This document shows positions 8,500 to 27,153 of a stretch of DNA of 64,000 nucleotides, piece after piece (within the stretch, counting starts at the first letter, position 1; each line of letters starts with the position of its first letter). The notes beneath the pieces were generated by a model. The model had not been told where the DNA came from, did not search any database, and was given only the letters and a program-made list of their open reading frames with translations. The position numbers were made by a program, and so were the translations under genes. The stretch comes from Herminiimonas arsenitoxidans (GTDB lineage Bacteria; Pseudomonadota; Gammaproteobacteria; Burkholderiales; Burkholderiaceae_D): positions 3,472,001-3,536,000 of the forward strand of contig NZ_LT671418.1 in the NCBI RefSeq assembly GCF_900130075.1, in the 5' to 3' direction.

Positions 8500-8550
8500 A
8501 TAGAAGGGATAACGAGAGGCGAGTCTAGACGAAAGTCGAAGCGCTTCTTG

Positions 8551-8664
8551 AGCATGGAAGCTAGGGTTCCGGTCGCGCAAGCGATGACTGGTCCGAGAGC
8601 ATCCGGTTTCGAACAGGCAGCCCATCGTTCGGAGCTACACGGAGGGATAAAAACCCGGGAGGCC
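8551..8664 (+). promoter_or_regulatory. Guanidine-I (ykkC) riboswitch 1
   Basis: The conserved ykkC/guanidine-I blocks appear in order: CTAGGGTTCCG (8561-8571), CTGGTCCGAGAG (8588-8599), ACGGAGGGATAAAA (8639-8652) and CCCGGGAG (8654-8661). This RNA class binds guanidinium and switches on guanidine-handling genes. The GGGAGGC at 8657-8663 can pair with GCCTCTC at 8686-8692 to form a terminator-like stem that would compete with the ligand-bound fold. It precedes an operon that carries guanidine carboxylase-type genes, which supports the guanidine subtype rather than the ppGpp or PRPP subtypes of ykkC. Confidence 0.9.
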
Positions 8665-8718: not shown

Positions 8719-8907
8719 ATGCGTTCATTATTTGCTTCGCGCGTCCTGCGCACATTGTCTGCAAGTCTACTTCGTCTATTGCCTGCCTGGTTTGTATCGG
8801 GAAGAGCAGATGGCGATATCCATATAGATCATTTCACGTTGGAAGAAGAGTCGGCATTTCTGCCGGAAACGCGCTTCTTCATTATCACCGCTGCCTTGAA
8901 AAGCTGA
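8719..8907 (+). CDS. Small ORF (62 aa) between riboswitch and ABC permease
   Basis: A 62-residue ORF that starts 27 bases after the predicted terminator, with CGGGGAA ten bases before the ATG, and ends 8 bases before the permease start. The first 26 residues are basic and hydrophobic (MRSLFASRVLRTL...), the rest is acidic and mixed. I recognise no family. Its position, ribosome site and tight spacing to the next gene suggest translation, perhaps as a leader coupled to the permease, but a chance ORF is possible. Confidence 0.4.
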   Translation: MRSLFASRVLRTLSASLLRLLPAWFVSGRADGDIHIDHFTLEEESAFLPETRFFIITAALKS

Positions 8908-8915
8908 GGCGCGCC

Positions 8916-9764
8916 ATGACCAAACTTCCTCCCTTGGAACGCGCCGTGGTGTTACGCAACACGCCGCGCAATCGTCGCTCACCGTGGGCAGTGCGCGGCG
9001 CGATACCGCGCAGTGTGATGCTGACGCTCGCAGTGTCCGGTTTTTTGCTGCCCTTCATCGGCTGGCTCATTTTGTCGGCCTCGGCCTGGGTCGATCCCGT
9101 CTTCTTGCCGACACCGATGAAAGTCTTGCAGCGCATGACTGACTGGTTGATCAATGACGATTTGATGAGCGACGTCGGCATCAGTATCGGTCGCGTGTTT
9201 GGCGGCTTCATCGCGGCGACCGTACTCGCGCTACCAGTCGGCATCATGATCGGCACCTATGCACCAGCCAAAGCCTTGCTGGAGCCGCTGACTGACTTTA
9301 GTCGCTATCTACCGGCGGTCGCGTTTATTCCACTCATTCTGTTGTGGGTCGGCATTGACGAGAGCGCTAAGGTAACCGTCATTTTTATCGGCACCTTTTT
9401 CCAAATGGTGTTGATGATAGCCGCCGATATCGTACGTGTACCCAACACGGCAGTGGAAGCTGCCAAGACCATGGGTGCCACTGATGGCGAAGTGCTGCAG
9501 TACGTACTGATCCCGGCAGCACGTCCGGCCATGCTGGACACCATGCGCTGCAATATGGGTTTGGCCTGGACTTATCTGGTGGTGGCGGAATTGGTGGCGG
9601 CCAATTCGGGATTGGGATTCTCGATACTGAAGGCGCAGCGCTTTCTGCAAACCGACAAGATCTTCGCCGGCATTCTGCTGATAGGTTTGGTCGGTCTGTT
9701 GACCGATCTGGCCTTCCGCTGGCTGCATCGCCACTGCTTCCGTTGGCACCATCTGCGAGGCTGA
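8916..9764 (+). CDS. ABC transporter permease (NitT/TauT/SsuC type), guanidine operon
   Basis: A 282-residue integral membrane permease of the nitrate/taurine/sulfonate (SsuC/TauC) family with about six membrane helices from residue ~35. The EAA-type ATPase-docking loop EAAKTMGATDGEVLQYVLIP is visible near residue 185. An in-frame extension to 8676 exists but would start inside the riboswitch expression platform; ATG 8916 has GAGG at 8906-8909. It pairs with the ATPase gene 2 bases downstream and, by inference, with the binding protein at 17306. The imported compound is probably guanidine or a guanidine derivative, inferred from the riboswitch and the enzymes that follow. Confidence 0.9.
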   Translation: MTKLPPLERAVVLRNTPRNRRSPWAVRGAIPRSVMLTLAVSGFLLPFIGWLILSASAWVDPVFLPTPMKVLQRMTDWLINDDLMSDVGISIGRVFGGFIAATVLALPVGIMIGTYAPAKALLEPLTDFSRYLPAVAFIPLILLWVGIDESAKVTVIFIGTFFQMVLMIAADIVRVPNTAVEAAKTMGATDGEVLQYVLIPAARPAMLDTMRCNMGLAWTYLVVAELVAANSGLGFSILKAQRFLQTDKIFAGILLIGLVGLLTDLAFRWLHRHCFRWHHLRG

Positions 9765-9766
9765 TC

Positions 9767-10639
9767 ATGGCAAATATCAAAATCAGTATCCGCAGTCTGG
9801 ATAAATATTACGGCCAGGGCGCACGTCGCACGCATGCATTAAATAACGTCAATCTGGAAGTGCAAAGCGGCGAGTTCATCACGCTGGTAGGCGCATCCGG
9901 TTGCGGCAAGTCGACGCTGCTGCGCACGCTGGGTGGGCTGGAAGAATATGCCGACGGCGATATCTTCTGCAACGGAAAAATGGTCGACGGTCCCGGCTCG
10001 GATCGCGCGATGGTGTTCCAGAGTTACAGCCTGTATCCGTGGCTGACCGTGACGGAGAACATCAAGTTTTGTCGTCGCCTCAAACACCATAGAGAGAACA
10101 CGACATCCAGCGATGTGGAATTCGCTGCTGGTCGTGCCGATGCCTTGATCGAACTGATGGGTTTGTCGCATGTCGCCGATTCCTACCCGGCGGAATTGTC
10201 CGGTGGTATGCAACAGCGCGTGGCGATTGCGCGAGCCTTCATGGTGCAGCCTGACGTGCTGCTGATGGATGAACCCTTCGGCGCACTCGATGCACAAACG
10301 CGCGAAGTGATGCACGACCTGATCCGCTACGTCTACAAACTGGAAAAAACCACCATCGTGTTCGTCACGCATGACGTGGAAGAAGCGATCTATCTCGGTC
10401 AGCGCGTCGTCGTGATGGCACCGCGTCCCGGCCGTATCGACAGCATCGTCGAGGTGCCGTTCGGCGCCGAGCGTCATCTGGACATGAAGCTGACGCCAGA
10501 ATTTGCCGCACTCAAGAAGCAGATCCTGGACCGCATACGCGAAACCTCAGGCATGAAGACCGACCTTGCGCAATTGAGCAAGCTGGTGCGCACTGCCGAT
10601 CCCGCACTGAATAACTCATCGAACCATGGAGACCTCTGA
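9767..10639 (+). CDS. ABC transporter ATP-binding protein, guanidine operon
   Basis: A 290-residue ATPase of the NitT/TauT family. Visible are Walker A (GASGCGKST, residue ~44), the Q-loop (VFQSYSLYPWLT), the signature LSGGMQQR (residue ~148), Walker B (VLLMDEPFGALDA) and the switch His (VFVTHDVEEA). It powers the permease encoded just upstream. The start at 9767 has GAGG eleven bases before it; an upstream in-frame codon at 9743 lies inside the permease gene and is less likely. The stop overlaps the start of the next gene by one base, so translation is probably coupled. Confidence 0.93.
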   Translation: MANIKISIRSLDKYYGQGARRTHALNNVNLEVQSGEFITLVGASGCGKSTLLRTLGGLEEYADGDIFCNGKMVDGPGSDRAMVFQSYSLYPWLTVTENIKFCRRLKHHRENTTSSDVEFAAGRADALIELMGLSHVADSYPAELSGGMQQRVAIARAFMVQPDVLLMDEPFGALDAQTREVMHDLIRYVYKLEKTTIVFVTHDVEEAIYLGQRVVVMAPRPGRIDSIVEVPFGAERHLDMKLTPEFAALKKQILDRIRETSGMKTDLAQLSKLVRTADPALNNSSNHGDL

Positions 10640-11421
10640 TGACAACTACCATCAATCAGGCAACGTTTGACCTGCCAGAACATGCGCAGGAATTCGCATC
10701 CGATCTTCCGCGCGAAAAAATATTGTGGACTGAACTCTTTCCCGGCGGTGGCCACTGGTCGTATCGCGTGCGTCGCGGCACGACTTTGCGCTTTGTCGAT
10801 CTGGAAGGTGGTGCCAATGTCGCCGTCTTGCTGTACCGCGCCGACGAGCGTCAGGACCGCTTGAATGTGCCCGACACGCTGAAGGCGCAACACACAGCGC
10901 ATCTGACGACCGGCAATGTGCTGTATTCCGATATGGGTCGCATCCTGGCATCCATCAGCGCCGACACCGTTGGTTGGCACGACCCTTTGTGTGGCTTGTC
11001 CGATGCCGCATTGGTACAGAAGAAATACGGCGAGCACCGTTATCAGGAACACCGCAATGCGATGTATCGCAACGGCAAGGACAGCATGCTGGTGGAACTG
11101 GGTAAATGGGGATTGGGACTGCGCGATCTGATACCCAACATCAATCTGTTTTCCAAAGTCGCGGTCGATAGCGACGGTCGCTTTCAGTTCGTTCCAGATC
11201 ACTCGAAAAAAGGTGGTTTCGTCGAATTGCGTTTCGAGATGGATACCTTGATCGCGCTATCGACGGCACCGCATCCGCTCGATCCTCATCCCGAATACGC
11301 ACCGAAAAAAGTCGCCGTCATCGCATGGGAAAGCGGCACCGCCGGCGCGGACGACATCTGTCGTTTGTCCTGCCCGGAAAACGGTCGCGGCTATAACAAC
11401 ACCGAATTGGTTTATCGCTAG
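10639..11421 (+). CDS. DUF1989 protein, urea-amidolyase-associated / carboxyguanidine deiminase subunit (first of pair)
   Basis: A 260-residue protein of the DUF1989 family, one of the two proteins that regularly accompany urea/guanidine carboxylase genes (UAAP pair). Published work on guanidine assimilation assigns this pair as carboxyguanidine deiminase (CgdAB), which converts the carboxylase product to allophanate and ammonia. Family features visible are VRRGTTLRFVDLEGGANVAV (residues ~50-70), SADTVGWHDP (residue ~110) and a conserved Cys/His-rich region. It overlaps the ATPase stop codon and precedes its paralogue by 14 bases. Which subunit name (A or B) applies I did not decide. Confidence 0.85.
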   Translation: MTTTINQATFDLPEHAQEFASDLPREKILWTELFPGGGHWSYRVRRGTTLRFVDLEGGANVAVLLYRADERQDRLNVPDTLKAQHTAHLTTGNVLYSDMGRILASISADTVGWHDPLCGLSDAALVQKKYGEHRYQEHRNAMYRNGKDSMLVELGKWGLGLRDLIPNINLFSKVAVDSDGRFQFVPDHSKKGGFVELRFEMDTLIALSTAPHPLDPHPEYAPKKVAVIAWESGTAGADDICRLSCPENGRGYNNTELVYR

Positions 11422-11435
11422 GAGGCTAGAAAAGC

Positions 11436-12083
11436 ATGAACACATTACGCACAAGCACATTGCAAGCATCCACCGCCGTTCTTGATCATTACCAGCCAGC
11501 CGGTGAACCATGGCTGCATACAGTCAAGCGCGGACAGATTTTTCGCATCGTTGATCTGGAAGGCAATCAGGCAGTCGATACGATTTTCTACAACGCTGAC
11601 GATACCGCTGAAAGCTACAGCGTCACCGACACCTTGCAACATCAGGGCGGCATTTATCTGAGTACTGGTTCGGTGCTGATGTCCAATCGCGGCCGGCCGT
11701 TGTTGACCATCACTGCCGACACTTGCGGTCGCCACGACACTCTGGGTGGTGCGTGCGCAGCTGAGAGCAACACGGTGCGCTATTCGCCGCAAAAGAAATT
11801 CATGCATAGCTGTCGCGACAACTATCTGCTCGCATTGGCGCATGCAGATAACGGCATGGGCAAGCGCGATCTGGTGCCGAACGTGAACTTTTTCATGAAC
11901 GTGCCGGTGACGGCAGCAGGCGGCCTGACCTTTGAAGACGGTTTGTCTGCACCCGGCAAGTATGTGGAAATGCGCGCCGAGATGGACGTGCTGGTGCTCG
12001 TATCGAACTGCCCGCAACTCAACAATCCCTGCAACGCATACAACCCGACGCCAGTGCGCTTTCTCGTCTGGGATCAAACATAA
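11436..12083 (+). CDS. DUF1989 protein, urea-amidolyase-associated / carboxyguanidine deiminase subunit (second of pair)
   Basis: A 215-residue paralogue of the preceding protein. The shared core is plain: [20 protein letters not shown] (residues ~28-48), [17 protein letters not shown] (~90-106), [11 protein letters not shown] (~123-133) and a C-terminal PVRFLVWD. Cys and His residues in these blocks are likely zinc ligands. It should form a heteromeric deiminase with the upstream protein, acting on carboxyguanidine. A strong ribosome site (AGGAGG) precedes the ATG. Confidence 0.86.
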
Positions 12084-12133: not shown

Positions 12134-15100
12134 ATGTTCACAAAAATTCTAATCGCCAATCGTGGGGAAATCGCCTGCCGTGTCATTCGTACCGCACGCA
12201 GCATGGGTATCAAGAGCGTTGCCATCTATTCGGAAGCAGACGTCGAATCATTGCATGTGCGTCTGGCAGATGAAGCCGTGTGCGTCGGCCCGGCCGCCGC
12301 CAGTGAAAGTTATCTCTCCGCCGAAAATGTATTGAACGCAGCCAAGCAAACGGGCGCGCAAGCGATCCATCCAGGTTACGGCTTCATGAGCGAGAACGCG
12401 GCATTTGCTGAAAGCTGTGCCGCTGCCGGTATCGTCTTTATCGGACCGACACCGCAGCAGATGCGTGCCTTCGGACTTAAACATACCGCGCGTGAATTGG
12501 CGCAACTGGCCAAAGTGCCTTTGCTTAGCGGTACCGGTTTGTTGAACGATGCAGATGAAGCATTGCGGGAAGCGCAGCGCATCGGTTACCCAGTCATGTT
12601 GAAGAGCACGGCGGGTGGCGGCGGCATCGGCATGCGTCTGTGCAAGGATGCGGAGGAATTACTGAGTGCATACGCATCGGTCAAGCATCTGTCGGAAAAC
12701 AACTTCAAGAACAGCGGCATCTATCTGGAAAAATTCGTCCAGCATGCGCGTCACGTTGAAGTGCAAATTTTTGGCGATGGACGCGGCAATGTGGTGTCGC
12801 TGGGCGAGCGTGATTGCTCGGTGCAGCGTCGCAATCAAAAAGTGATAGAAGAAACACCCGCGCCGGGTTTGCTGGAAACCACACGCCAGGCTCTGGCAGA
12901 AACTGCAGTGCGCCTCGCGGAATCGATTTCATATTTATCCGCCGGCACGGTGGAGTATGTGCTCGATGCTGACACCGGCGAGTTTTACTTCCTCGAAGTC
13001 AATACACGCTTGCAGGTTGAGCATGGCGTGACGGAAGAAGTGTTCGGTGTCGATCTGGTTGAGTGGATGATACGTGCGGCCGATGGCAACTTCATCTTGC
13101 CCAAGCAAACCGATCTGCGCTCGCAAGGGCATGCGATGCAACTGCGTGTGTATGCGGAAGATCCGGCGAAAAATTTCCAGCCATCGTCCGGTGTCTTGAC
13201 TGCGGTTGAGTTTGCCGCCGGTTTGCGCGTTGATACCTGGGTAGAACGTGGTGTTACCGTCAGCCCTTACTACGATCCGCTGCTGGTCAAATTGATCGTC
13301 AAGACTGATGACCGTGCGGCCTCGATCAAGGCGCTGAGCACGGCTTTACAGACCACACGCATAGACGGCATAGAAACCAATCTCGCCTACCTCGCGACGA
13401 TACTTGGCTACCGCACATTTGTCGAAGGCAAACAGATCACGCAGATGCTGGCCGGCATGCCGTATCAGCCGCGCACTGTTGATGTGATCGATGGCGGCAT
13501 ACAAACCACAGTGCAGGATTATCCCGGTCGTCTGGGTTTGTGGGCAGTTGGTATTCCGCCTTCCGGTCCGATGGATGCTTATGCGCATCGCTACGCCAAT
13601 CATTTGCTAGGTAACGATCTCAAGGCAGCAACGCTGGAGCTGACCTTGCAAGGCGCGACCTTGAGTTTTAACTGTGCGTGCACGATTGCACTGACTGGTG
13701 CCGATCTGGGTGCCAGCGTGAGCGGGCCGGATGGCAAGCGTGCGCTGAAAAATTGGCAGGCACATCAGATCAAGGCTGGCGAGACTTTACGCTGCGGCAA
13801 TGTCAGCGGCGCTGGTGTACGTGCTTATCTTGCTTTCGCTGGTGGTTTGGATACGCCGGAATATCTGGATAGTCGTGCCACCTTCACGCTCGGTAATTTC
13901 GGCGGACATGGTGGACGCGCATTGCGCGCTGGCGATGTCTTGAAACTGAATGCCGTCGATGTAACTCCGCGTGCAGCCGAACCGCAAGCCGTGCCTGAAT
14001 ACACACACGCATGGGAAGTTGCCGTCCATTACGGCCCGCACGGTGCGCCTGATTTCTTCACCGATGAAGATATCGCGATGTTCTTTGGTACGGATTGGCA
14101 GGTGCATTTCAACTCCAGTCGCACTGGCGTGCGTCTGATCGGACCCAAGCCGCGCTGGGCGCGTAGCGATGGTGGCGAAGCTGGCTTGCATCCATCGAAT
14201 ATTCACGACAACGCGTATGCGATCGGCTCGATAGATTTTACTGGCGACATGCCGGTGATACTCGGCCCCGACGGTCCGAGTCTGGGCGGCTTTGTGTGTC
14301 CAGCGGTGATCGTCTCGGCAGACTTGTGGAAGATAGGCCAGTTGAAACCGGGCGATACCGTGCGCTTCATCCGCGTGTCGGTAGAGCAGGCTGCTGCGAT
14401 GCGCGAGTTGCAGGAAAGCGTGTTTGAAAATGGTGTATCTGCTGCGCCGACATTTGTGCCGACAGTCAGTGACGCCGGCACGCAATCGACCGCCATCATT
14501 AGAGAAACGACACTGGACGATGGCACGCGCATCATCTACCGCCGTGCCGGCGACGATTACCTGCTGGTTGAATTTGGCGAGCTGGTGCTGGATATCAATC
14601 TGCGCTTCCGCGTGCATGCCTTGATGCAGGCGATAGCAGATGCGAAGTTGCGCGGCGTGATCGATCTGACGCCGGGCATACGTTCGCTGCAAGTGCATTT
14701 TGATCACAGGCAATTGCCAGGTAATCAGTTGATCAGCTTGATCGATGATCGGATCAAGCAATTGCCGGCTGTCGATGACATGGTGGTGCCGTCGCGCATC
14801 GTGCATCTGCCGCTGGCGTGGAACGATACGCAAACACGTCTGGCGATACAAAAATATCAAACCACAGTGCGGCCGGATGCGCCCTGGTGCCCAAGCAATA
14901 TCGAATTCATTCAGCGCATCAACGGACTGGATTCGATCAAGGAAGTCTACGACGTTGTCTTCAACGCCAGTTACATGGTGCTGGGTCTGGGCGACGTTTA
15001 TCTGGGTGCGCCGGTCGCCACGCCTATCGATCCGCGTCATCGTCTGGTCACCACCAAGTACAACCCGGCACGTACCTGGACGCCGGAAAACGCCGTCGGC

Positions 15101-15763
15101 ATCGGTGGTGCCTATCTGTGCGTGTACGGCATGGAAGGGCCGGGCGGTTATCAATTCGTCGGTCGCACCGTGCAGATGTGGAATCGCTACAGACAGACCG
15201 ACAGCTTCCGCGACAACAAACCGTGGCTGTTGCGCTTCTTCGATCAAATCCGTTTTTACGAAGTCAGTGAAGAACAGTTGCTGGAACACCGACGCGATTT
15301 TCCGCTCGGGCGCTTTGATGTGCGGATAGAAGAGACGACCTTCTCACTAGCCGACTACAACAAGTTCCTGGCACAGGAACAGGTATCCATTTCTTCCTTC
15401 AAGGATAAGCAGCAAGCCGCATTCGAGGCCGAGCGCGATCGCTGGCGTCATTCCGGTCAGGCCGAATGGGTCAGCGAAGAAGCCGTTGCCAGCACCGGTA
15501 CCGAAGTGGAATTGCCGGAAGGCAGTCGCTACCTGTCCGCCATCGTACCGGGCAGCGTGTGGAAGATCGTGGCGCAAGTCGGCGACACGCTGGCCGAGGG
15601 CGACACGATCGCCATTCTTGAATCAATGAAGATGGAAATTCAGTTGACCGCTACCGATACCGGCGTACTCGCCGAATGGCTGGTAGGCGAAGGCACGCCG
15701 GTTGCCGCTGGTCAGCACATCGCTGTTTTTAATGTAGTACCCCCTGTCGTTGCTGTTCAATAG
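12134..15763 (+). CDS. Biotin-dependent urea/guanidine carboxylase
   Basis: A 1209-residue multidomain carboxylase. Order: biotin carboxylase (residues 1-450, with the ATP-grasp loop [15 protein letters not shown] and [11 protein letters not shown]), an AHS2/KipA-like carboxyltransferase half (~455-760, [15 protein letters not shown]), an AHS1/KipI-like half (~790-1010) and a C-terminal biotinyl domain with the target Lys in [12 protein letters not shown] (~1165). The allophanate hydrolase domain found in fused urea amidolyases is absent. With a guanidine riboswitch and the DUF1989 pair in the same operon, the substrate is more probably guanidine than urea: ATP and bicarbonate give carboxyguanidine. 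Urea activity may also exist, and specificity cannot be proved from sequence. No clear Shine-Dalgarno precedes the ATG. Confidence 0.92.
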
Positions 15764-15807: not shown

Positions 15808-16713
15808 ATGTCTTTCTATCGCACTCTTGGATTAACGCTGGCGGGCGCCAGTATTTTTGTCACTGGTGGTGCAATGGCGCAGGAAGCGGCTACTGCGCCC
15901 ATCGCTGATGCATCGTCGTGGACCGGGCACATTGATGTAGTCAATCGCTACATCCTGCGCGGTATCACAGACACTTATGGCCCGAGCAAACCGGGACTCG
16001 GCAATGCAGGTGCTGATGCACCTGAATCCGATAAAGCGGCCTTACAATGGGGCGCAGACTGGACGCATCCATCCGGCTTCTATGCAGGTTACTGGGCATC
16101 GACAGTCAACTATTCCTACAAGCGTTTGGGACAGTCTTATTACGATCGCAGCATCACTGATTTTCAATCGGACAAATCAATTGAAAATGATTTCTACGGC
16201 GGTTACACCGGCAAGATCGGCGACTTTGGCTACACGGTAGGCATGACAGGTTATGTGTACATCAATGGCAAGGATGCGAATGCGCTGGAAACCAAACTCG
16301 GTGTCAGCTATGGCGACTTCGCATTGAATGCGCAAACCTTGTTGAATGATGTGGTCTGGGGTAACAAGGGTGATACCTACTGGACGCTGAACTACACCAA
16401 GCCATTGCCGTATGACATCACGCTCAATGCATCTCTCGGTTATTACACGTACAAGAAGGAAGGCAAGTTCCTCGGTACCGTTGATACCGCCAGTGGCACA
16501 GCTTGCGCGGCTGGAGAAAGCTTCAACGTCAGTGCCTGCGTGGCTGGTAATGCACCTAGCGGCAGTGGCTTCCGTCATCTGATCGTTGGCATCACCCAGC
16601 CTATCGGCAAAACCGGTTTGACCTGGGGTCTGCAAGGTTTGATCGGTGGTGAAAACCGTTTTGCAGTTCATCAAAGTAGCAAGGTCACCGCTTCCCTCAG
16701 CTACGGTTTTTAA
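15808..16713 (+). CDS. Outer-membrane porin-like protein (TIGR02001/TorF family)
   Basis: A 301-residue beta-barrel protein: signal peptide (residues 1-24, ending AMA-Q), then many short amphipathic strands rich in Tyr, Trp and Gly (GADWTHPSGFYAGYWAS, DFYGGYTGKIGDFGYTVG) and a C-terminal aromatic strand ending SLSYGF. This matches the TIGR02001 family of putative porins. It is the last gene of operon 1, 44 bases after the carboxylase, with AAAGGAAT before the ATG and a terminator behind. I infer that it lets guanidine or a related cation cross the outer membrane; this is not demonstrated for the family. Confidence 0.82.
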   Translation: MSFYRTLGLTLAGASIFVTGGAMAQEAATAPIADASSWTGHIDVVNRYILRGITDTYGPSKPGLGNAGADAPESDKAALQWGADWTHPSGFYAGYWASTVNYSYKRLGQSYYDRSITDFQSDKSIENDFYGGYTGKIGDFGYTVGMTGYVYINGKDANALETKLGVSYGDFALNAQTLLNDVVWGNKGDTYWTLNYTKPLPYDITLNASLGYYTYKKEGKFLGTVDTASGTACAAGESFNVSACVAGNAPSGSGFRHLIVGITQPIGKTGLTWGLQGLIGGENRFAVHQSSKVTASLSYGF

Positions 16714-16997: not shown

Positions 16998-17141
16998 AGA
17001 ACCCGTTTGCGATCTTACTGCGAGGCCATGATCCGGCGTCGGGCGGTGCTCGAAATCCTCACGTACTTATGTACGTTCCGGTTTCTGCGCTCCGGCCGCC
17101 ACCAGCTGATGACCTCTCGCTACAGATCGTAAACAGGTTCT
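16998..17141. repeat. Hairpin-forming repeat element (MITE/REP-like) in operon 2 leader
   Basis: Terminal arms 16998-17015 (AGAACCCGTTTGCGATCT) and 17124-17141 are inverted copies with two mismatches. Inside is a nested palindrome ACGTAC-TTAT-GTACGT (17061-17076) and further imperfect pairing, so the whole 144 bases can fold into one long hairpin. It carries no gene. It sits between the sigma-54 promoter and the riboswitch. I think it is a non-autonomous mobile or dispersed repeat, but copies elsewhere in the genome cannot be seen here. Confidence 0.6.
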
Positions 17142-17147
17142 TACTTA

Positions 17148-17252
17148 GAAGTACTAGGGTTCCGATCATGTGCCTGCGTGCAGATGATGCCTGGTCCGAG
17201 AGTACTTCGGCCTCGATGGTGAGGCTCCACGGAGGGATAAAAGCCCGGGAGA
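17148..17252 (+). promoter_or_regulatory. Guanidine-I (ykkC) riboswitch 2
   Basis: Conserved blocks in order: CTAGGGTTCCG (17154-17164), CTGGTCCGAGAG (17191-17202), ACGGAGGGATAAAAG (17229-17243) and CCCGGGAG (17244-17251). The P1-type stem GAAGTAC (17148-17154) with GTACTTC (17202-17208) is perfect. GGAGAAC (17248-17254) can pair with GTTCTCC (17267-17273), giving an alternative hairpin that overlaps the aptamer end; no good T-run follows, so the output mechanism is less clear than in riboswitch 1. Confidence 0.9.
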
Positions 17253-17305
17253 ACAATTGCAGCACCGTTCTCCTTGCGCCCACTTATTCGACCAGGAGTT
17301 TTGCC

Positions 17306-18340
17306 ATGCCTTTTTCTACCAGTACGCAAGCCCCCATCACATTCAAGAACGATGTCTATCGTGCGCTGTGCCGTGTTGCCGTCGGTGCTGTGCTGCTCAT
17401 TGCTGCCAGTGCATCTTTCGCCGCGAGCAAGATCAATGTCGGCACAGTGGTATGGATAGGCTACGGCCCTTTCTATGTCGCAGAGTCGCTCAATCTGTAC
17501 AAAAAATACGGCCTCGACGTCAAGCTGAACGTCTTCAGTGATCCGGCATTGATTCCTGCCGCGCTGGCCAGCGGTTCGGTGCAAGGTGCGATGCTGACGT
17601 ATGACCAGGTGATCGGCCAGGTCGCGCTGGGCATGCAGCAGCGTGTGGTGATGCCTATCGATTATTCAAACGGCGGCGATGCAATTGTTGCGGCCAACAG
17701 CATTACTAAAGTTAGTGATTTCAAAGGCAAGAAAATCGGCTTCAATCCATTGTCACCATCTGATTTTTTGCTGTCGTATGCGTTGAAAAAAAATGGCATG
17801 ACCGACAAGGACATCACCTCAGTTGCCATGACACCGGAATCGGTGCCGGCAGCCATGGCCTCGGGACAGATGCCGGTCGGCGTCACTTATGAACCTAGCC
17901 TGTCGCAGATCGTCAGCCAGGGCGGTGGCAAGAAATTCCACGTCGTGTATTCGTCGAAAGATGCACCTGGCCTGATCGCCGACGTGCTGGTGTTCAACGA
18001 CAAGTACATCAAGTCCAATCCGAAAGAAATCAAAGGCATTATCCAGTCCTATCTCGATGGGCTCGCTTACATGAAAGCCAAGCCAGATGAAGCTGCCAAG
18101 ATCATTGGCAAGTTCATGGGTATCTCGGCCAAGGAAGTGAAGGAACAACTGTCCGGCGTCTACAACATTCCATTGGCTGAAATGCCGAAGGCTTATGTGA
18201 AGTCAAGCGAGACCACGTCCTACTACGCCAGCGGCGACATCATCAGCAGCATTCTGAAAGCGAAGGGTCAGATCAAGACCATTCCGCCGACCGAATCGAC
18301 CATCGATGCACAGTTCGTCACCGAATTGCAGAAGAAGTAA
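17306..18340 (+). CDS. ABC transporter substrate-binding protein (NitT/TauT/SsuA type), guanidine operon 2
   Basis: A 344-residue periplasmic binding protein. A long signal peptide (residues 1-40, hydrophobic run VAVGAVLLIAASASFAA) precedes INVGTVVWIGYGPFYVAESL, the family's typical first strand. The start at 17306 has CAGGAG eight bases before it; the longer in-frame reading would run through the riboswitch. Operon 1 has a permease and ATPase of the same family but no binding protein, so this is the likely partner. The ligand is probably guanidine or a guanidino compound, by context. A gap of 100 bases with no clear terminator separates it from the next gene. Confidence 0.88.
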   Translation: MPFSTSTQAPITFKNDVYRALCRVAVGAVLLIAASASFAASKINVGTVVWIGYGPFYVAESLNLYKKYGLDVKLNVFSDPALIPAALASGSVQGAMLTYDQVIGQVALGMQQRVVMPIDYSNGGDAIVAANSITKVSDFKGKKIGFNPLSPSDFLLSYALKKNGMTDKDITSVAMTPESVPAAMASGQMPVGVTYEPSLSQIVSQGGGKKFHVVYSSKDAPGLIADVLVFNDKYIKSNPKEIKGIIQSYLDGLAYMKAKPDEAAKIIGKFMGISAKEVKEQLSGVYNIPLAEMPKAYVKSSETTSYYASGDIISSILKAKGQIKTIPPTESTIDAQFVTELQKK

Positions 18341-18440
18341 TGAGAGCGGCCGGGTCGGCCTATGCGTGACATTCCATCGCTTTGCAGATGGATGTCAGAC
18401 GCGGACCGATCTCGGCCTGTCTTGATATAGAGAGGTAACA

Positions 18441-19457
18441 ATGATTGCGCAATACTATCGATATCCAGATGGCACCTTGCCGAACACGGCAGCGATGGCA
18501 TTTACATTGCTGGGTTATCCATTGGGTATAGCTTTGCTGGTACAGCCGTTCTGGCTGGCCAAGGCGGCCGGCTTTTTGCTGGTGACGCTGACGCTGATCT
18601 GGTCTGCCTACTTCATCCATGAATACGCGCATCAGGCGATTTTCAAGACGCCTGAAGCAAACGCGCGTTGGGGCACGGTCATGACGTGGATCAATGGCAG
18701 CTGCTATGCGAAGTTTGCCGATTTGCGCCGCAAGCACATGCGACATCACGTCGAACGCGCCGATGTTATTACCTTCCATGTGCAGGGTTTTCTGAACAAC
18801 GGACCGGCCTGGCTGCGCAAGTTGGTGCTGGTGCTGGAATGGGCGTATATCCCTGCGGTTGAATTCATCATGCACGCCTATGTGATGGCGCTGCCCTTCA
18901 TCAAGCCGAGTGCAGATAAATCGCGCACCCGCATCATCGCCATTTTTATCGTACGCACTGTTGCGTTTGCGGCACTGGCCTGGTATTCGTTGTCGGCGCT
19001 GGTGCTGTATGCGATTGCGTATGTCGTGTTCATTACCGTGCTGCGTTTTGCCGATTGCTTTCAGCATACATACGATGCGTATCCGATACTCGACGAGTCG
19101 CCGATACCGAACGACAAGGTGCGCGATCGTGCTTACGAGCAAGCCAATACCTACAGCAATGTGGTTGGCATCGACAGCAAATGGCTGAACATGCTGTGGC
19201 TCAATTTTGGCTTTCACAACGCGCATCACGCACGGCCCACGATCCCGTGGTACCGACTGCCTGCCTTCCATCGCGAACTGTACGATGCAGCTAACAGCCA
19301 GGTGATCCCGGTACGCATACTGCTGAAAAGTTTCCACATCAATCGCGTCAAGCGCGTGCTGTCCGCAGATTACGGACAGGTGTTGCCACCGGACGTCAAT
19401 GGTCGCGCCGATGGTTTTCTTGGTGCAGTTGGCGTGTCGTTTCTAACTGCCATTTGA
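18441..19457 (+). CDS. Fatty-acid-desaturase-superfamily (diiron, membrane) oxygenase
   Basis: A 338-residue membrane protein with the three histidine boxes of the desaturase/hydroxylase superfamily: HEYAH (residue ~56), HMRHH (~97) and HNAHH (~257), and about four membrane helices. The boxes bind two irons that activate oxygen. The family includes lipid desaturases but also alkane, sterol and N-alkyl hydroxylases. Being inside a guanidine-riboswitch operon with two dehydrogenases and two C-N hydrolases, it is more likely to hydroxylate a small alkyl or cyclic guanidino substrate than a fatty acid; that is inference. Good ribosome site (AGAGAGG). Confidence 0.85.
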   Translation: MIAQYYRYPDGTLPNTAAMAFTLLGYPLGIALLVQPFWLAKAAGFLLVTLTLIWSAYFIHEYAHQAIFKTPEANARWGTVMTWINGSCYAKFADLRRKHMRHHVERADVITFHVQGFLNNGPAWLRKLVLVLEWAYIPAVEFIMHAYVMALPFIKPSADKSRTRIIAIFIVRTVAFAALAWYSLSALVLYAIAYVVFITVLRFADCFQHTYDAYPILDESPIPNDKVRDRAYEQANTYSNVVGIDSKWLNMLWLNFGFHNAHHARPTIPWYRLPAFHRELYDAANSQVIPVRILLKSFHINRVKRVLSADYGQVLPPDVNGRADGFLGAVGVSFLTAI

Positions 19458-19470
19458 GCAAGCGCAGCAC

Positions 19471-20241
19471 ATGACGATCAACTACGGATTGACCGGCCGC
19501 TCAGTGTTGATTACCGGCGCTGCCAGCGGCATTGGTTTGGCGATTGCGCAGGCATTTGCGGCACAAGGTTGCCGCACGCTGCTGCTCGACCGTAATGCTG
19601 AAGGTCTGGCGACTGCGTTGCAGACGATGCCGAATGCCGACGTGAGCGTTTTTGCATGCGATCTTTCTTCCGATGAGGAAGTCGCTGCGCTGGCCGAACA
19701 AATTCCAAACATCGATGTGCTGGTCAACAATGCCGGCGTTGAATATCCGACGCCGCTGACTGCGGCCGTCGATGTGGCAGCCAGCTTCGCCCGACTGCTG
19801 GATAACAATGTGACCAGCATGGCGCGCCTGACCAACGCGCTGCTGCCGCACATTCCCGATGGCGGATGTGTGATCAATCAGGCGTCGATCTGGGGACGCA
19901 TAGGCGTCGCGGAGTTCTCCGCTTACGTTGCCAGCAAACATGCGGTGATCGGTCTGACGCGCTCGCTCGCGTGGGAACTCGGCGCACGCAACATACGCGT
20001 CAACGCAGTGTGTCCGGGCTGGGTATTTACCGATGCGGCAGAGCGTTCGCTGACGGCGATGGCGGCACGCGATGGCTGCGATATTGCAACAGCACGACGT
20101 ACGGTACTCGCGCAACAGGCGATCCAGCGCGAAATTCTGCCGGCCGAGATCGCGCGCAGTTTTCTTTTCCTTGCATCCGATGATGCAGCTGCCATTACCG
20201 GTCAGTCACTGGTCGTGAGTCGGGGCGAGGTGATGGCATGA
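19471..20241 (+). CDS. Short-chain dehydrogenase/reductase (SDR) 1
   Basis: A 256-residue classical SDR. Visible are the NAD(P) motif TGAASGIG (residues ~15-22), Asp at the end of beta-2 (LLLDRN, suggesting NAD preference), NNAG (~87), and the catalytic Ser/Tyr/Lys set (INQASIWG, then YVASK at ~151-155). It starts 13 bases after the desaturase-like gene and its stop overlaps the start of the second SDR by 4 bases. It probably oxidises an alcohol or hemiaminal-type product of the oxygenase; substrate unknown. Confidence 0.9.
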   Translation: MTINYGLTGRSVLITGAASGIGLAIAQAFAAQGCRTLLLDRNAEGLATALQTMPNADVSVFACDLSSDEEVAALAEQIPNIDVLVNNAGVEYPTPLTAAVDVAASFARLLDNNVTSMARLTNALLPHIPDGGCVINQASIWGRIGVAEFSAYVASKHAVIGLTRSLAWELGARNIRVNAVCPGWVFTDAAERSLTAMAARDGCDIATARRTVLAQQAIQREILPAEIARSFLFLASDDAAAITGQSLVVSRGEVMA

Positions 20242-20993
20242 TCAAGCTCGATTTGTCAGGGCAGATTGCCTGTGTCACCGGTAGCGCTACTGGTATCGGA
20301 CGTGCGTGTGCAATGGCATTGGCGGCAGCGGGAGCCAAAGTGGCATTGAATCATTTCGGCCAGCCTGCATTGTCGCTGCAGTTGGAACAGGCGATACGCG
20401 AGCAGGGTGGGTCTGCGTTTTCGTTCGATGCCGATGTCACCGATGCCGCCGCTGTAGAACAGATGTTCGAGCAGATAGAAACCACGATGGGACCATTGAA
20501 TATCTTGGTCAACAACGCCGGCATCCTGTTGCAAAAACCGTTTCTGCAAACCACCGAAGAAGAATGGGATCGTGTCATCGCTACCGATCTCAAATCGGTA
20601 TTTCTTTGCAGTCGCGCCGCGCTGTCGCGTATGGTGCCGCGCGCTGCCGGCTGTGTGATCAATGTCGCATCCGAACTGGCCTATCTGGGCCGCGATGAAT
20701 TCGGCGTGTACTGCGCAGCGAAAGCCGGTGTGATCGGATTGACCAAGTCGCTGGCGCGCGAGTTCGCACCGGCCATCCGCATCAATGCCGTTGCGCCCGG
20801 CCCGACCGATACCGCGATGTTGTCACTCGACCAGATCAGTGCGGAATGGCAAGAGAAAGAGTTGGCGATTCCGGCCGCGCGCGCGGCGCATCCGAACGAA
20901 ATTGCATCAACGGTGGTTTTCCTCGCCAGTGATCACGCACGCTTTTTCTATGGACAGACATTAAGTCCGAATGGTGGCGCGTTGATGCTGTGA
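20238..20993 (+). CDS. Short-chain dehydrogenase/reductase (SDR) 2
   Basis: A 251-residue classical SDR with TGSATGIG (residues ~12-19), NNAG (~92), the catalytic Ser (VINVASELA) and YCAAK (~156-160). Beta-2 ends in LNHFGQ rather than an Asp, so NADP is possible. It is translationally coupled to SDR 1 by an ATGA overlap. Two different SDRs in tandem suggest two successive oxidations or a dehydrogenase-reductase pair in one pathway. Substrate unknown. Confidence 0.9.
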   Translation: MIKLDLSGQIACVTGSATGIGRACAMALAAAGAKVALNHFGQPALSLQLEQAIREQGGSAFSFDADVTDAAAVEQMFEQIETTMGPLNILVNNAGILLQKPFLQTTEEEWDRVIATDLKSVFLCSRAALSRMVPRAAGCVINVASELAYLGRDEFGVYCAAKAGVIGLTKSLAREFAPAIRINAVAPGPTDTAMLSLDQISAEWQEKELAIPAARAAHPNEIASTVVFLASDHARFFYGQTLSPNGGALML

Positions 20994-21049
20994 ACACTGC
21001 ATGGTCGCAAACGCTGCTTACGTTGCAATAGCTTCTAATGGAGAGATGT

Positions 21050-21820
21050 ATGGATAATTCGAGAATGGATCATTTGACCTGGGTGACGTACGAGCAGCGC
21101 ATACAGGACCCCAACGTCATCGTGTTGCTACCGGTCGGTGCACTGGAGCAGCACGGTCCGCATTTGCCGCTGGGCACCGATGCTTTGCTGGCGAATGCCG
21201 TATCGCAGTCGGTCGCCGCGCAGATAGGTGCTATCGTCGCGCCGCCGATCAACTTCGGCTACAAGTCACAACCTAAATGCGGTGGTGGTCAGCATTTCCC
21301 CGGCACCACCAGCCTTGACGGTAGCACGCTGGCCAGCCTGACCTGCGACATCATCGCGGAATTGGCACGGCACGGTGTACGCAATGTGGCAGTGGTATCC
21401 GCTCATTATGAAAATCAGTGGTTTCTGACGGAAGGCATAGACCTCGCGCGACGTCGTGTCGGACCGAATTCACCACTGCGCGTAATGCGTCTGGAATACT
21501 GGGATTTCATCACCGAAACAACGCTGGAAAAAATTTTCCCTGAAGGCTTCCCCGGCTTTGCACTGGAACATGCGGCCGTGATCGAGACCTCGATGATGTT
21601 GCATTACTTCCCTGATCTGGTACGACTTGATCAACTGCCGGAACATCCGGCTGCCGTGTTCCCACCGTACGACATGTATCCGACCTGCACGCACTGGGTG
21701 CCGTCGTCCGGTGCCTTGTCGTCAGCCAAGGGAGCGACGGCAGAAAAAGGCGTGCTGATGATAGATGAAGTGACTACGCGCATAGCCGCAGCCTTGCGCA
21801 AGGAGTTCATCGATGGCTGA
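21050..21820 (+). CDS. Creatininase-family amidohydrolase
   Basis: A 256-residue metal-dependent amidohydrolase of the creatininase family. The metal-binding block LLPVGALEQHGPHLPLGTDA (residues ~26-45, with Glu, His and Asp ligands) and the second block SAHYENQWFL (~118-127, His and Glu) are present. Family members open cyclic amides such as creatinine or act on related C-N bonds. ATG 21050 is preferred over the ATG at 21038 because GGAGAG at 21040-21045 is correctly placed for it. It overlaps the following hydrolase gene by 8 bases. In this operon it could open a ring in a cyclic guanidine such as creatinine; the exact substrate is not readable. Confidence 0.88.
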   Translation: MDNSRMDHLTWVTYEQRIQDPNVIVLLPVGALEQHGPHLPLGTDALLANAVSQSVAAQIGAIVAPPINFGYKSQPKCGGGQHFPGTTSLDGSTLASLTCDIIAELARHGVRNVAVVSAHYENQWFLTEGIDLARRRVGPNSPLRVMRLEYWDFITETTLEKIFPEGFPGFALEHAAVIETSMMLHYFPDLVRLDQLPEHPAAVFPPYDMYPTCTHWVPSSGALSSAKGATAEKGVLMIDEVTTRIAAALRKEFIDG

Positions 21821-22478
21821 AAGAACGGCACTGATCGTGATCGACATGCAGCGCGATTTTTGCGCAGCGGGTGGTTATGCGGCGCAAGCCGGGCTGGATG
21901 TGACGCGTCTGACTTCGGTAGTGAGCAACATCAGCTTGCTGCTGGATGCGGCAAGACAGGCACAGCTTCTGGTCCTGCATACGCGCGAAGGTCATGTGCC
22001 TGATCTGTCGGATTGCCCGCCGCAAAAAATGGCCCGCAGCATACATGCAGGTGCCGCTATCGGTAGCGTCGGACCGATGGGACGTTTGCTGGTGCGCGGC
22101 GAATACGGCCACGACATCATCGATGAACTGTCGCCCTTGCCGGAAGAAACCGTGATCGATAAACCCGGTTACGGCGCTTTTTACCAAACGGCGCTGCAGG
22201 AGATATTGCAAGATCATGAAATCGATACCTTGATTTTGTGCGGCGTCACAACCGAGGTCTGCGTGCATTCGACGCTGCGTGAAGCGGTCGATCGCGGCTA
22301 CAACTGCATCGTGGTTGGTGATGCCTGTGCGGCCAGCAATCCGGCACTGCAACAGCCTGCGCTGGACATGATAGCGGTGGAGGGTGGCATCTTTGGATCG
22401 GTAGCCACGGCGGCTGCGATTGCCGCAACCATCTATCCAGTGACGAACACAACTGAGAAAACGGCATACGCAAATTAA
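21813..22478 (+). CDS. Isochorismatase-family cysteine hydrolase (amidase type)
   Basis: A 221-residue cysteine hydrolase. The catalytic triad is visible: Asp in ALIVIDMQRDF (residue ~11), Lys in VIDKPGYGAFY (~116) and Cys in LCGVTTEVCVHSTLR (~152). The family includes biuret hydrolase, guanylurea hydrolase and N-carbamoylsarcosine amidase, all of which cut urea-like or guanidine-like groups. With a creatininase homologue overlapping upstream and a guanidine riboswitch in front of the operon, a role in splitting a carbamoyl or guanyl group is likely. It is the last gene clearly belonging to operon 2. Confidence 0.88.
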   Translation: MAERTALIVIDMQRDFCAAGGYAAQAGLDVTRLTSVVSNISLLLDAARQAQLLVLHTREGHVPDLSDCPPQKMARSIHAGAAIGSVGPMGRLLVRGEYGHDIIDELSPLPEETVIDKPGYGAFYQTALQEILQDHEIDTLILCGVTTEVCVHSTLREAVDRGYNCIVVGDACAASNPALQQPALDMIAVEGGIFGSVATAAAIAATIYPVTNTTEKTAYAN

Positions 22479-22571: not shown

Positions 22572-23375
22572 ATGAATATGATGAGCAAGATGGAAGCTAT
22601 GGATGCAGTACAGGATGTAGTACCAGCGCGTTATCGAGGCGTCTGGCGTCGCAGCTTGCTGGAAGCGCCCGGCGTTCACGATACGACGACGACAGTTTTC
22701 TGGCTGCAATGCGGACGCTGGCATGCTGATATTCGGATACCGGCAGCGCGCCCCGATTTTTCGCAGACGCGTAGTTTGGATGAGTGCAATGCGGAACAGC
22801 TGGCATGGCTGGCGCGGCAGCAGGGATTTGCCGGCATCACGGAAGTTGTCGCTACGCCGCAAGCTGAGATATGTAGCTGGCATAGACTGGTCGATTATCA
22901 ACCGCCGGCCGCAACGCCGGATGCTGGCGTGATGCGATTCGAGCCTGAGAAATTGGTTGAAACCGGCGTGCATGGCGTGTATCTGGAAGACTGGCATCAC
23001 TTGCCGGATTCTGCCGCAGCCTTTGCCGTATTGCAAAAAATGGATGCAGCATCGAATTGCACAACGCCCAAAGAATTTGTGATGATCGCCGGTGTATATG
23101 TGATGCACGTGCGCGAACGCAGCGTGGCATGGCCTGAAGGAATAGTGATGGCAGACATCGCGCAAATCGATGATGCCCAGCGCCTGCTGGATTTTGAAAT
23201 CTCATTCGGCAGACGCAACGCCAGCGGCTGGCGCATAGAACATTCGACCTTGCCGTGGTTGGAGAATAAGCAGATGGAAGTCAGTCTGCTTGCTGTAGCG
23301 GAAGACGAACTGGAAATGTCATGGAATGGTGTGTCCTCGCAGTGGAAGATACTGGAATGGGAAGCGCCGCGCTAA
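22572..23375 (+). CDS. Conserved hypothetical protein, possibly HRI1-like
   Basis: A 267-residue cytoplasmic protein without signal peptide or membrane helix. The segments YRGVWRRSLLE, WLQCGRWHADIRIPAARP and YLEDWHHLP recall a family of unknown function that includes yeast Hri1 and bacterial homologues with paired beta-barrels, but I make this link only tentatively. The start is uncertain: ATG 22572, 22590 and 22599 are all possible and none has a strong ribosome site. It lies 93 bases after the cysteine hydrolase without an obvious terminator, so it may be the distal gene of operon 2. It is convergent with the autotransporter. Confidence 0.6.
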   Translation: MNMMSKMEAMDAVQDVVPARYRGVWRRSLLEAPGVHDTTTTVFWLQCGRWHADIRIPAARPDFSQTRSLDECNAEQLAWLARQQGFAGITEVVATPQAEICSWHRLVDYQPPAATPDAGVMRFEPEKLVETGVHGVYLEDWHHLPDSAAAFAVLQKMDAASNCTTPKEFVMIAGVYVMHVRERSVAWPEGIVMADIAQIDDAQRLLDFEISFGRRNASGWRIEHSTLPWLENKQMEVSLLAVAEDELEMSWNGVSSQWKILEWEAPR

Positions 23376-26790: not shown

Positions 26791-27153
26791 GGCAGAAAAG
26801 AAAGAGAATTGATTTCCTGCGCATGGTTGGGGATTTCTCCGCAAGAGTAAATACTGCAAATGCAGTAGTCGATCTGACGGATAGACAGTTTTGCTAGGCA
26901 AGAGATGCCATGCCGAAAACGATGTTTCAGAGGAGAAACAGGCGAGCAAGCGTGTATATTCCACGCTTGCTGCTCACATCGTATGCAAAGAATATTTTTG
27001 AAAAAAACAGTGATGGCAGCGTCGTTTTGTGGACGAATGTGTACGTGACGCTAAACGACGGATTGCGGGGAAACGTATTTTGACAGCGGACATGGGTCGG
27101 TGCTCAAGCTTCATCCGGCAAGCAGCAATGGGATGTCAACAAAATCGCAGACG
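26791..27153. other. Gene-free stretch upstream of the autotransporter
   Basis: No supported gene; it must contain the autotransporter promoter and leader. I see no convincing -35/-10 pair or repeat. The sodB terminator begins at 27154. Confidence 0.4.

Follow-up and report, generated by a model that had tools for sequence, protein, structure and literature searches.

A guanidine-riboswitch-linked gene cassette in Herminiimonas arsenitoxidans and its relatives, with a candidate role in freeing guanidine from substituted guanidines

We examined a 64,000-nt stretch of the Herminiimonas arsenitoxidans genome (NZ_LT671418.1; genome 3.78 Mb), referred to here as the window, and all coordinates are positions within it. 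Two operons headed by guanidine-I riboswitches adjoin each other in the window. Operon 1 carries a guanidine carboxylase (gca) pathway, and operon 2 encodes a NitT/TauT-type binding protein (SBP2), a membrane di-iron oxygenase of the FA_desaturase fold (DES), two short-chain dehydrogenases/reductases (SDR1 and SDR2), a creatininase-family hydrolase (CRN), a cysteine hydrolase (ICH) and a seventh protein (ORF7). With somewhat more confidence than doubt, we read operon 2 as a cassette under guanidine-riboswitch control that produces free guanidine from substituted guanidines and so supplies the adjoining guanidine carboxylase operon.

The original prediction had placed a riboswitch ahead of the binding protein, oxygenase, two SDRs, creatininase homologue and cysteine hydrolase, and had held that all five enzymes keep their catalytic residues. 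Both statements agreed with the Rfam and Pfam matches and with residue conservation (Table 1), which was counted over cassette proteins from complete ORFs without internal stops, the window included. The CRN metal ligands were kept in 58 or 59 of 59 proteins (one gap in three columns), and the ICH triad was kept at Asp in 60/60 and at Lys and Cys in 59/60 (one gap each). The gene positions first given, within 17148..22478, agreed with ours, with two corrections: the binding-protein gene more likely starts at 17306, and the gene run extends into ORF7 (22572-23375), which lies on the same strand 93 bases 3' of ICH.

A conserved cassette downstream of guanidine-I riboswitches

A scan for DES with one genome per species yielded 86 relatives, 80 of which were kept as loci, mostly from Burkholderiales as judged by their titles. 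These loci were gathered with DES as bait and are mutually related, so that counts over them overstate independence and the DES count itself is uninformative. All-against-all comparison of the loci gave the fullest gene order as SBP2-DES-SDR1-SDR2-X-CRN-ICH-Y-ORF7; here X stands for a transporter of EamA type and Y for a hydrolase with the metallo-beta-lactamase fold. By profile search, 87 loci were tabulated (the 80 and 7 others), and the 63 with at least 6.5 kb downstream of DES were counted. ORF7 was the most constant partner of DES (61/63), followed by SBP2 (60), ICH (56), X (55), CRN (53), SDR2 (52), SDR1 (47) and Y (42); another metallo-beta-lactamase-fold protein was present in 9/63 loci that had no Y. 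The window holds neither X nor Y at the cassette position, the place where X was sought, and Y was not found elsewhere in the genome.

Guanidine-I RNAs were present in 78 of the 79 genomes holding DES loci. When riboswitches were paired with loci by coordinates rather than by contig number, one was found 21-213 nt upstream of the SBP2 match in 73 of the 80 loci. Among the other seven, four had no room upstream (L055, L065, L079 and L088), in two (L042 and L067) the nearest riboswitch heads an extended gene run upstream that includes ABC or gca genes, and the last, L084, is weighed below. Because the same gene order, with losses, recurs over 80 loci and a riboswitch stands upstream in 73 of them, the association of the cassette is beyond chance. 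Further families of the class also carry the same cassette with a guanidine-I RNA (L119, L120, L121, L111 and L133), and a minimal operon of riboswitch-DES-Y-ORF7-X was noted in L110. More broadly, 2705 DES relatives were found in sequence databases at E 1e-20 or better, and of 8000 candidates scored with the ORF7 profile, 519 reached 1e-5 or better. The proposed catabolic-looking gene set, with its riboswitch and its tie to the guanidine carboxylase operon, is therefore conserved over the loci of relatives.

The constancy of ORF7 bears on which protein would release guanidine, a role first given to the isochorismatase-family hydrolase, ICH. This protein resembles biuret hydrolase (BiuH; PDB 6xix, 6xjm and 6azo) as a cysteine hydrolase with an Asp, Lys and Cys triad. 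It differs in its location in a guanidine operon and in its score against the BiuH model NF050097 (260.8 bits, under the cut-off of 370). Guanylurea hydrolase is itself an isochorismatase-family enzyme. ICH could thus be imagined as a guanylurea- or acylguanidine-hydrolase and the main releaser of guanidine, with DES acting on an unrelated substrate, and liberation of guanidine by guanylurea hydrolase is described in the available part of PMC12186494. We consider this very improbable: ICH is missing from 7/63 DES loci and from L110, and ORF7 is more constant than ICH (61 versus 56 of 63). An MgdL-family ORF7 is the likelier releasing enzyme.

ORF7 and its MgdL-type relatives

ORF7 gave no Pfam, NCBIfam or PDB sequence match. 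A profile built from 20 ORF7 proteins and searched against 369 members of the class matched 8 genomes including that of the window, one of them marginally (G239, E 9.3e-4). In L108, a 2-oxoglutarate (2-OG)/Fe(II) dioxygenase gene directly follows gca, and the gene directly after it encodes an ORF7 homologue of 225 aa; a guanidine-I RNA heads the run, and a guanidine-II RNA precedes gca. In L106, which has a guanidine-II RNA, one further gene stands between gca and the dioxygenase gene, and the ORF7 homologue comes directly after the latter. The L108 arrangement matches the published gca-mgdH-mgdL layout of V. boliviensis, for which the available part of PMC12508155 reports MgdL as a beta-barrel with catalytic residues Asp49 and Arg51 and with Glu, Asp and Trp around the substrate. 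The L108 homologue has a conserved pair at D49 and R51, the same numbers as in MgdL; it was taken as an MgdL by this context and these residue numbers and served in the comparison in place of A0A265DXW6.

The window ORF7 aligned with the L108 protein over 228 columns (Table 1). Its D53 and R55, together with eight other checked residues, were kept in 60/60 cassette proteins, a count that holds for W25, D108, E130, E139 and W141. In alignment A2, whose 59 rows take in L108, L106 and L109, the D-x-R pair did not vary. The structure model is mostly beta (mean pLDDT 93.9), in line with the reported beta-barrel of MgdL. Seven clear ORF7 homologues lie outside the window, and their oxygenase partners are DES in L104 and L110 and a 2-OG dioxygenase in L106, L108 and L109; in L105 and L107 the neighbours checked included no recognisable oxygenase. 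From the homology, the Asp/Arg pair, the L108 setting and the oxygenase partners, we assign ORF7 by sequence to the MgdL family, and the best reading of DES is that it stands where MgdH, a 2-OG dioxygenase, stands.

Compared with MgdH-MgdL of Vreelandella boliviensis, as presented in the available part of PMC12508155, the window shares the guanidine-I riboswitch, the guanidine carboxylase operon, the ABC importer and the pairing of an oxygenase with an MgdL-family protein that keeps the catalytic Asp and Arg; MgdL is a beta-barrel lyase, and the window protein, with its mostly-beta model, is a candidate one. The differences are a membrane di-iron oxygenase in place of the 2-OG/Fe(II) dioxygenase and the addition of SDR1-SDR2-CRN and ICH, to which the relatives also add the EamA-type and metallo-beta-lactamase genes. 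The window also has no guanidine-II RNA at the Rfam cut-off.

Two further ORF7-family settings were noted. The genome of L108 holds a second 2-OG dioxygenase and ORF7-family pair (L109:8804-10383) with ABC transporter and class II aldolase genes, and no gca relative was seen in that stretch. A gca-type run in L105 (L105:9675-19998) includes ORF7, an EamA transporter, an ABC importer, a distant creatininase-family gene (28%) and a glutamine-synthetase-like gene.

The membrane oxygenase

The Pfam fold of DES, FA_desaturase, would fit a true lipid desaturase placed under guanidine control, for example for membrane protection. However, the curated equivalogs for desaturases, hydroxylases and ketolases have cut-offs of 350-500 bits, and DES scored no more than 23.3 bits against them. 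The genes that recur beside it are of guanidine, transport, SDR and hydrolase type, and no recurrent lipid gene was recognised among the annotated neighbours of the DES loci. The lipid role was set aside on these grounds as extremely improbable. Sets that consistently lack ykkC RNAs and are accompanied by lipid genes had been named beforehand as contrary to a guanidine link; this pattern was looked for over the loci of relatives, which did not display it. The earlier suggestion that the oxygenase hydroxylates a substituted guanidine was supported, and on sequence grounds DES probably does so.

Searches of plasmids returned one distant DES match (34.5%) on the Gloeothece plasmid NC_014533.1 (634945-636048; L124) and none for ORF7. 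The L124 homologue adjoins genes annotated as ectoine synthase, tryptophan 7-halogenase and HpaB, in a cluster that looks biosynthetic.

The SDR1-SDR2-CRN module and GpuA-type loci

SDR2 and CRN were linked in their occurrence. Both were present in 52 of the 63 counted loci and neither in 10, with CRN alone in 1 and SDR2 alone in 0 (Fisher test; 8.6e-11, a value not taken as a probability since the loci are related). In the uncounted locus L009, with less than 6.5 kb downstream, SDR1 and CRN occur without SDR2. The TIGR04448 model was then searched in 350 genomes of the class and 398 of the phylum, of which 8 and 13 were positive, with 3 shared. Besides the cassettes already described, 13 further TIGR04448 stretches were examined, G832 (193.8 bits, below the cut-off) being left out. 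One, L133, is a DES cassette; eight carry CRN and SDR2 without DES or ORF7; and four carry CRN without an SDR.

The eight loci with CRN and SDR2 are L134, L135, L136, L151, L152, L154, L155 and L156, and SDR1 is present in all but L152. A GpuA-type ureohydrolase lies beside CRN or SDR2 in five of them (L134, L135, L151, L154 and L155). Of the other three, L136 is truncated by the end of its contig, a Rieske oxygenase takes this place in L152, and a GntR regulator does so in L156. The NitT/TauT-type ABC importer is found in six (L134, L135, L136, L154, L155 and L156). Against the Pseudomonas aeruginosa 3-guanidinopropionase, the L134 and L135 ureohydrolases scored 540 and 467 bits, versus 329 and 319 against guanidinobutyrase, and those of L151, L154 and L155 were assigned by 60-66% identity to that of L134. 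A tyrosine that we take to set 3-guanidinopropionate specificity was present in four of the five, the motif being unmatched in L151. Thus five CRN and SDR2 loci hold close relatives of GpuA (PDB 3nip), four of them with the NitT/TauT-type importer. Neither the window nor any of the 88 DES loci, many of them truncated, gave a GpuA relative; there, DES and ORF7 are in its place. No guanidine riboswitch was found in the 12 non-DES CRN stretches.

Because CRN and SDR2 occur without the oxygenase in eight loci, five of them beside a GpuA-type enzyme, the SDR-CRN module probably yields a guanidino acid. From its gene content, the SDR1-SDR2-creatininase-like-GpuA set looks like an undescribed guanidino-compound operon of its own, without a guanidine riboswitch. 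Two side observations concern CRN surroundings. In L152 (L152:8090-10827), a Rieske ring-hydroxylating-type oxygenase adjoins CRN and SDR2, making a third oxygenase type in such a context. In L138 (L138:9137-12616), a CRN relative (44%) occurs without an SDR, and a ureohydrolase 45% identical to that of L134 lies about 1.8 kb downstream.

These loci also bear on a simpler scheme, in which the cassette is a methylguanidine demethylase and methylguanidine its native substrate. DES would replace MgdH, ORF7 would be MgdL releasing guanidine and formaldehyde, and the SDRs, CRN and ICH would handle formyl or side products such as N-formylguanidine. Consistent with it, ORF7 is assigned to the MgdL family, MgdL is reported to be narrow for N-(hydroxymethyl)guanidine in the available part of PMC12508155, and the minimal operon of L110 has no SDR, CRN or ICH. 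A formyl side route nevertheless leaves unexplained why CRN and SDR2 stand beside a GpuA-type hydrolase in five loci without DES or ORF7, and we regard this scheme as unlikely, though not negligible.

The creatininase-family hydrolase

CRN passes the NCBIfam equivalog TIGR04448 (Table 1), and automatic annotation will therefore label it a creatininase. It shares with the Pseudomonas putida-type enzyme (PDB 1j2t) the family, the metal ligands, Trp155, His178 and Glu183, but its lid differs. The P. putida lid is Trp174, Asp175 and Gly179-Gly180, compared with F174 (56) or Y174 (3), A175, A179 and A180 in 59/59 cassette proteins. Four stretches with CRN outside SDR settings served for comparison. 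L137 and L153 lie beside a BCCT transporter, L153 also beside a creatinase, and L150 beside an amidohydrolase and a CoA-transferase; L138 is described above. In the creatinine-type settings of L153 and L137, W174 and the Gly-Gly pair are kept but Ala stands at 175, so that Asp175 does not discriminate. The L150 protein has W174 with Ala-Ala, so that W174 alone does not discriminate either. A tree of 33 rows (20 thinned cassette rows, being every third and the window, with L133 and 12 others) split L153 and L137 from all other rows with 100/100 support, a split that carries a long-branch warning. SDR2 accompanies CRN in 52/53 CRN-positive loci, in contrast to the creatinase or BCCT neighbours found only in L153 and L137, and no creatinase gene was seen beside CRN in the cassette.

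Since the lid differs, no creatinase is beside it and it travels with SDRs even without the oxygenase, CRN is, by these comparisons, probably not an ordinary creatinine-pathway creatininase. Creatinine was set aside as a substrate on the lid, the tree and the neighbours, and it is unlikely to be the native one. Of the original interpretation, the choice of releasing enzyme was changed and a creatinine-pathway role for the creatininase homologue found no support; what stands is the conserved guanidine-linked set and the probable role of the oxygenase.

In an alternative, oxidative creatinine route by way of creatones A and B, every enzyme class fits one step. DES would convert creatinine to creatol (5-hydroxycreatinine), an SDR would form creatone A, CRN would open it to creatone B, and ICH would release methylguanidine and oxalate, after which DES and ORF7 would remove the methyl group. 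CRN is a close creatininase relative, and a chemical reaction of creatinine with oxygen that gives creatol and methylguanidine is described in the available part of PMC3775425. Against this, CRN is without the Trp174 and Gly-Gly pair of creatinine-pathway enzymes in 59/59, ICH occurs without SDR2 and CRN in 10/63 loci and CRN without ICH in 7/63, and outside DES loci CRN and SDR2 go with GpuA in 5/8. Such a route appears improbable.

Gene content of the window

The genes of the guanidine carboxylase pathway are present in this genome: gca, CgdA and CgdB (the last by position and tblastn only) are in operon 1, and allophanate hydrolase, which finishes the route, is encoded elsewhere (840.4 bits; cut-off 511). 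Both aptamers exceed the RF00442 gathering score of 63, and a search of the 3.78-Mb genome gave no match beyond these two. A borderline match to Rfam sX9 was noted at 17061-17135 (44.3 bits; gathering 44), directly 5' of the second riboswitch. For SBP2, a start at 17306, which gives a signal peptide, is more likely than one at 17069 because the longer frame traverses the aptamer. The next best match to SBP2 in its own genome is only 27% identical, and the gap separating the first aptamer from the permease gene of operon 1 is too small to hold a binding-protein gene. We therefore infer that SBP2 probably serves the operon-1 permease and ATPase. After ORF7, the neighbourhood is bounded by a minus-strand ORF of 1189 aa (23395-26964), which by its repeats resembles an autotransporter-type surface protein.

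Table 1. Features of operons 1 and 2 and the gene between them (positions in the window)
Feature	Position	Strand	Basis
Guanidine-I riboswitch aptamer, operon 1	8550..8663	+	RF00442, 82.7 bits
ABC permease, operon 1 (approximate start)	8742..9764	+	ORF; adjoins cassette in relatives, e.g. L042, L119-L121
ABC ATPase, operon 1 (approximate start)	9767..10639	+	ORF; gene order of relatives
Carboxyguanidine deiminase subunit A (CgdA, UAAP1 family)	10639..11421	+	TIGR03425, 355.5 bits (cut-off 205.95)
Carboxyguanidine deiminase subunit B (CgdB, UAAP2-like)	11436..12083	+	ORF, named by position and tblastn; relatives adjoin gca in many loci
Guanidine carboxylase (gca; urea carboxylase family)	12134..15763	+	TIGR02712, 1852 bits (cut-off 1303.85)
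TorF-family putative porin, between operons 1 and 2	15808..16713	+	TIGR02001, 64.8 bits (cut-off 47.15)
Guanidine-I riboswitch aptamer, operon 2	17143..17253	+	RF00442, 79.5 bits
SBP2, NitT/TauT-type binding protein	17306..18340	+	NMT1, 93.9 bits
DES, membrane di-iron oxygenase (FA_desaturase fold), candidate guanidino-compound hydroxylase	18441..19457	+	PF00487, 129.5 bits (cut-off 29.7); His boxes H60/64, H99/102/103 and H259/262/263 in 82/82
SDR1	19471..20241	+	PF13561; Ser, Tyr, Lys in 58/58
SDR2	20238..20993	+	PF13561; Ser, Tyr, Lys in 67/67
CRN, creatininase-family hydrolase, altered lid	21038..21820	+	TIGR04448, 360.6 bits (cut-off 235); Pfam Creatininase, 200.4 bits
ICH, cysteine hydrolase related to biuret hydrolase	21813..22478	+	PF00857 (Isochorismatase), 164.7 bits
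ORF7, MgdL-family protein, candidate carbinol-guanidine lyase	22572..23375	+	32% identity, E 3e-34, to the L108 MgdL-position protein

Proposed pathway

The aptamers, the gene order, the family and catalytic pair of ORF7, the SDR-CRN module apart from DES and the CRN lid are the features that sequence supports, and from them we infer the reactions, uptake route, induction, step order and substrate that follow. The substrate, probably a small substituted guanidine, would be imported by SBP2 with the operon-1 permease and ATPase. DES would hydroxylate the carbon adjoining a guanidine nitrogen, and ORF7, as an MgdL-family lyase, would split the carbinol into guanidine and an aldehyde or oxo-acid, amounting overall to oxidative N-dealkylation. 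SDR1, SDR2 and CRN would form a separate upstream module. It would probably oxidise a guanidino alcohol, or else a cyclic carbinol, to a cyclic acylguanidine resembling creatinine, whose ring is then opened to give a guanidino acid. This acid would be cut oxidatively by DES and ORF7 here and hydrolysed by GpuA in other bacteria. ICH may act as a further amide-type hydrolase, operon 1 would take guanidine to ammonia so that it serves as a nitrogen source, and free guanidine would induce both operons through both riboswitches.

Such a two-ended modular scheme would explain the 52-0-1-10 pattern of SDR2 and CRN, the altered CRN lid and the swap of GpuA for DES and ORF7. In its widest form, we put it forward only tentatively, with more doubt than confidence. 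An undescribed pathway, scattered over several proteobacterial families, would then use a membrane di-iron oxygenase together with an MgdL-family lyase for the oxidative cleavage of guanidino acids or alkylguanidines, with guanidine and an oxo-acid as products. The pathway would be fed by an SDR1-SDR2-creatininase-like module that makes guanidino acids from guanidino alcohols by way of a cyclic acylguanidine and feeds a hydrolytic GpuA branch elsewhere, and the riboswitch would mark the oxidative end.

Several observations weigh against the proposed function. The cassette is patchy: DES turned up in 6 of 100 genomes searched around that of the window and in 7 of 398 drawn from the phylum, the window's genome being counted in each. 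The genome of L084 has no guanidine-I RNA, and its locus has no ORF7 within 6.3 kb downstream; L112 carries DES, X, ICH and Y without a detectable ORF7 and with no guanidine riboswitch in its stretch; and L067 and L133 carry DES, SDR2 and CRN without a detectable ORF7. ICH and Y are usual members without a firm step in the scheme, and neither metallo-beta-lactamase gene is present in 12/63 loci or in the window. The CRNs of DES loci grouped with only 62/88 support. DES homologues at 41-44% identity (L122 and L123) occur with a TIM-barrel protein and an ABC transporter and with no riboswitch or ORF7, and the oxygenase family is therefore not confined to a guanidine pathway. Finally, by analogy with MgdL, ORF7 may act on N-(hydroxymethyl)guanidine only.

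Novelty and biological meaning

Riboswitch-linked oxidative guanidine release is already known from MgdH and MgdL. Among the matches listed in our literature search, judged by titles and counts, only PMC12508155 uses these names in the guanidine sense. No literature joining guanidine riboswitches with a creatininase or desaturase was found, and literature on guanidinopropionate with creatininase, ureohydrolases or guanidino alcohols held nothing on the SDR-CRN gene set, in searches that mostly covered papers outside subscription. Neither the membrane oxygenase nor the added module turned up in these searches, and the same holds for the occurrence in Burkholderiales and further families and for the link between SDR, CRN and GpuA.

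The source of environmental guanidine and the commonness of guanidine riboswitches are an open question, and few guanidine-producing reactions are named in the available parts of PMC12508155 and PMC12186494. If the reading offered here is true, the cassette would let bacteria produce guanidine from substituted guanidines, a membrane di-iron oxygenase would act on small polar guanidines, and the MgdL lyase family would extend beyond the halophiles described in the available part of PMC12508155. The analysis also flags misleading annotation, as 'fatty acid desaturase', 'creatininase' and 'hypothetical protein' are names for parts of what appears to be a single guanidine pathway. Directly testable hypotheses about substrates follow from the modular exchange between GpuA and the pair of DES and ORF7.

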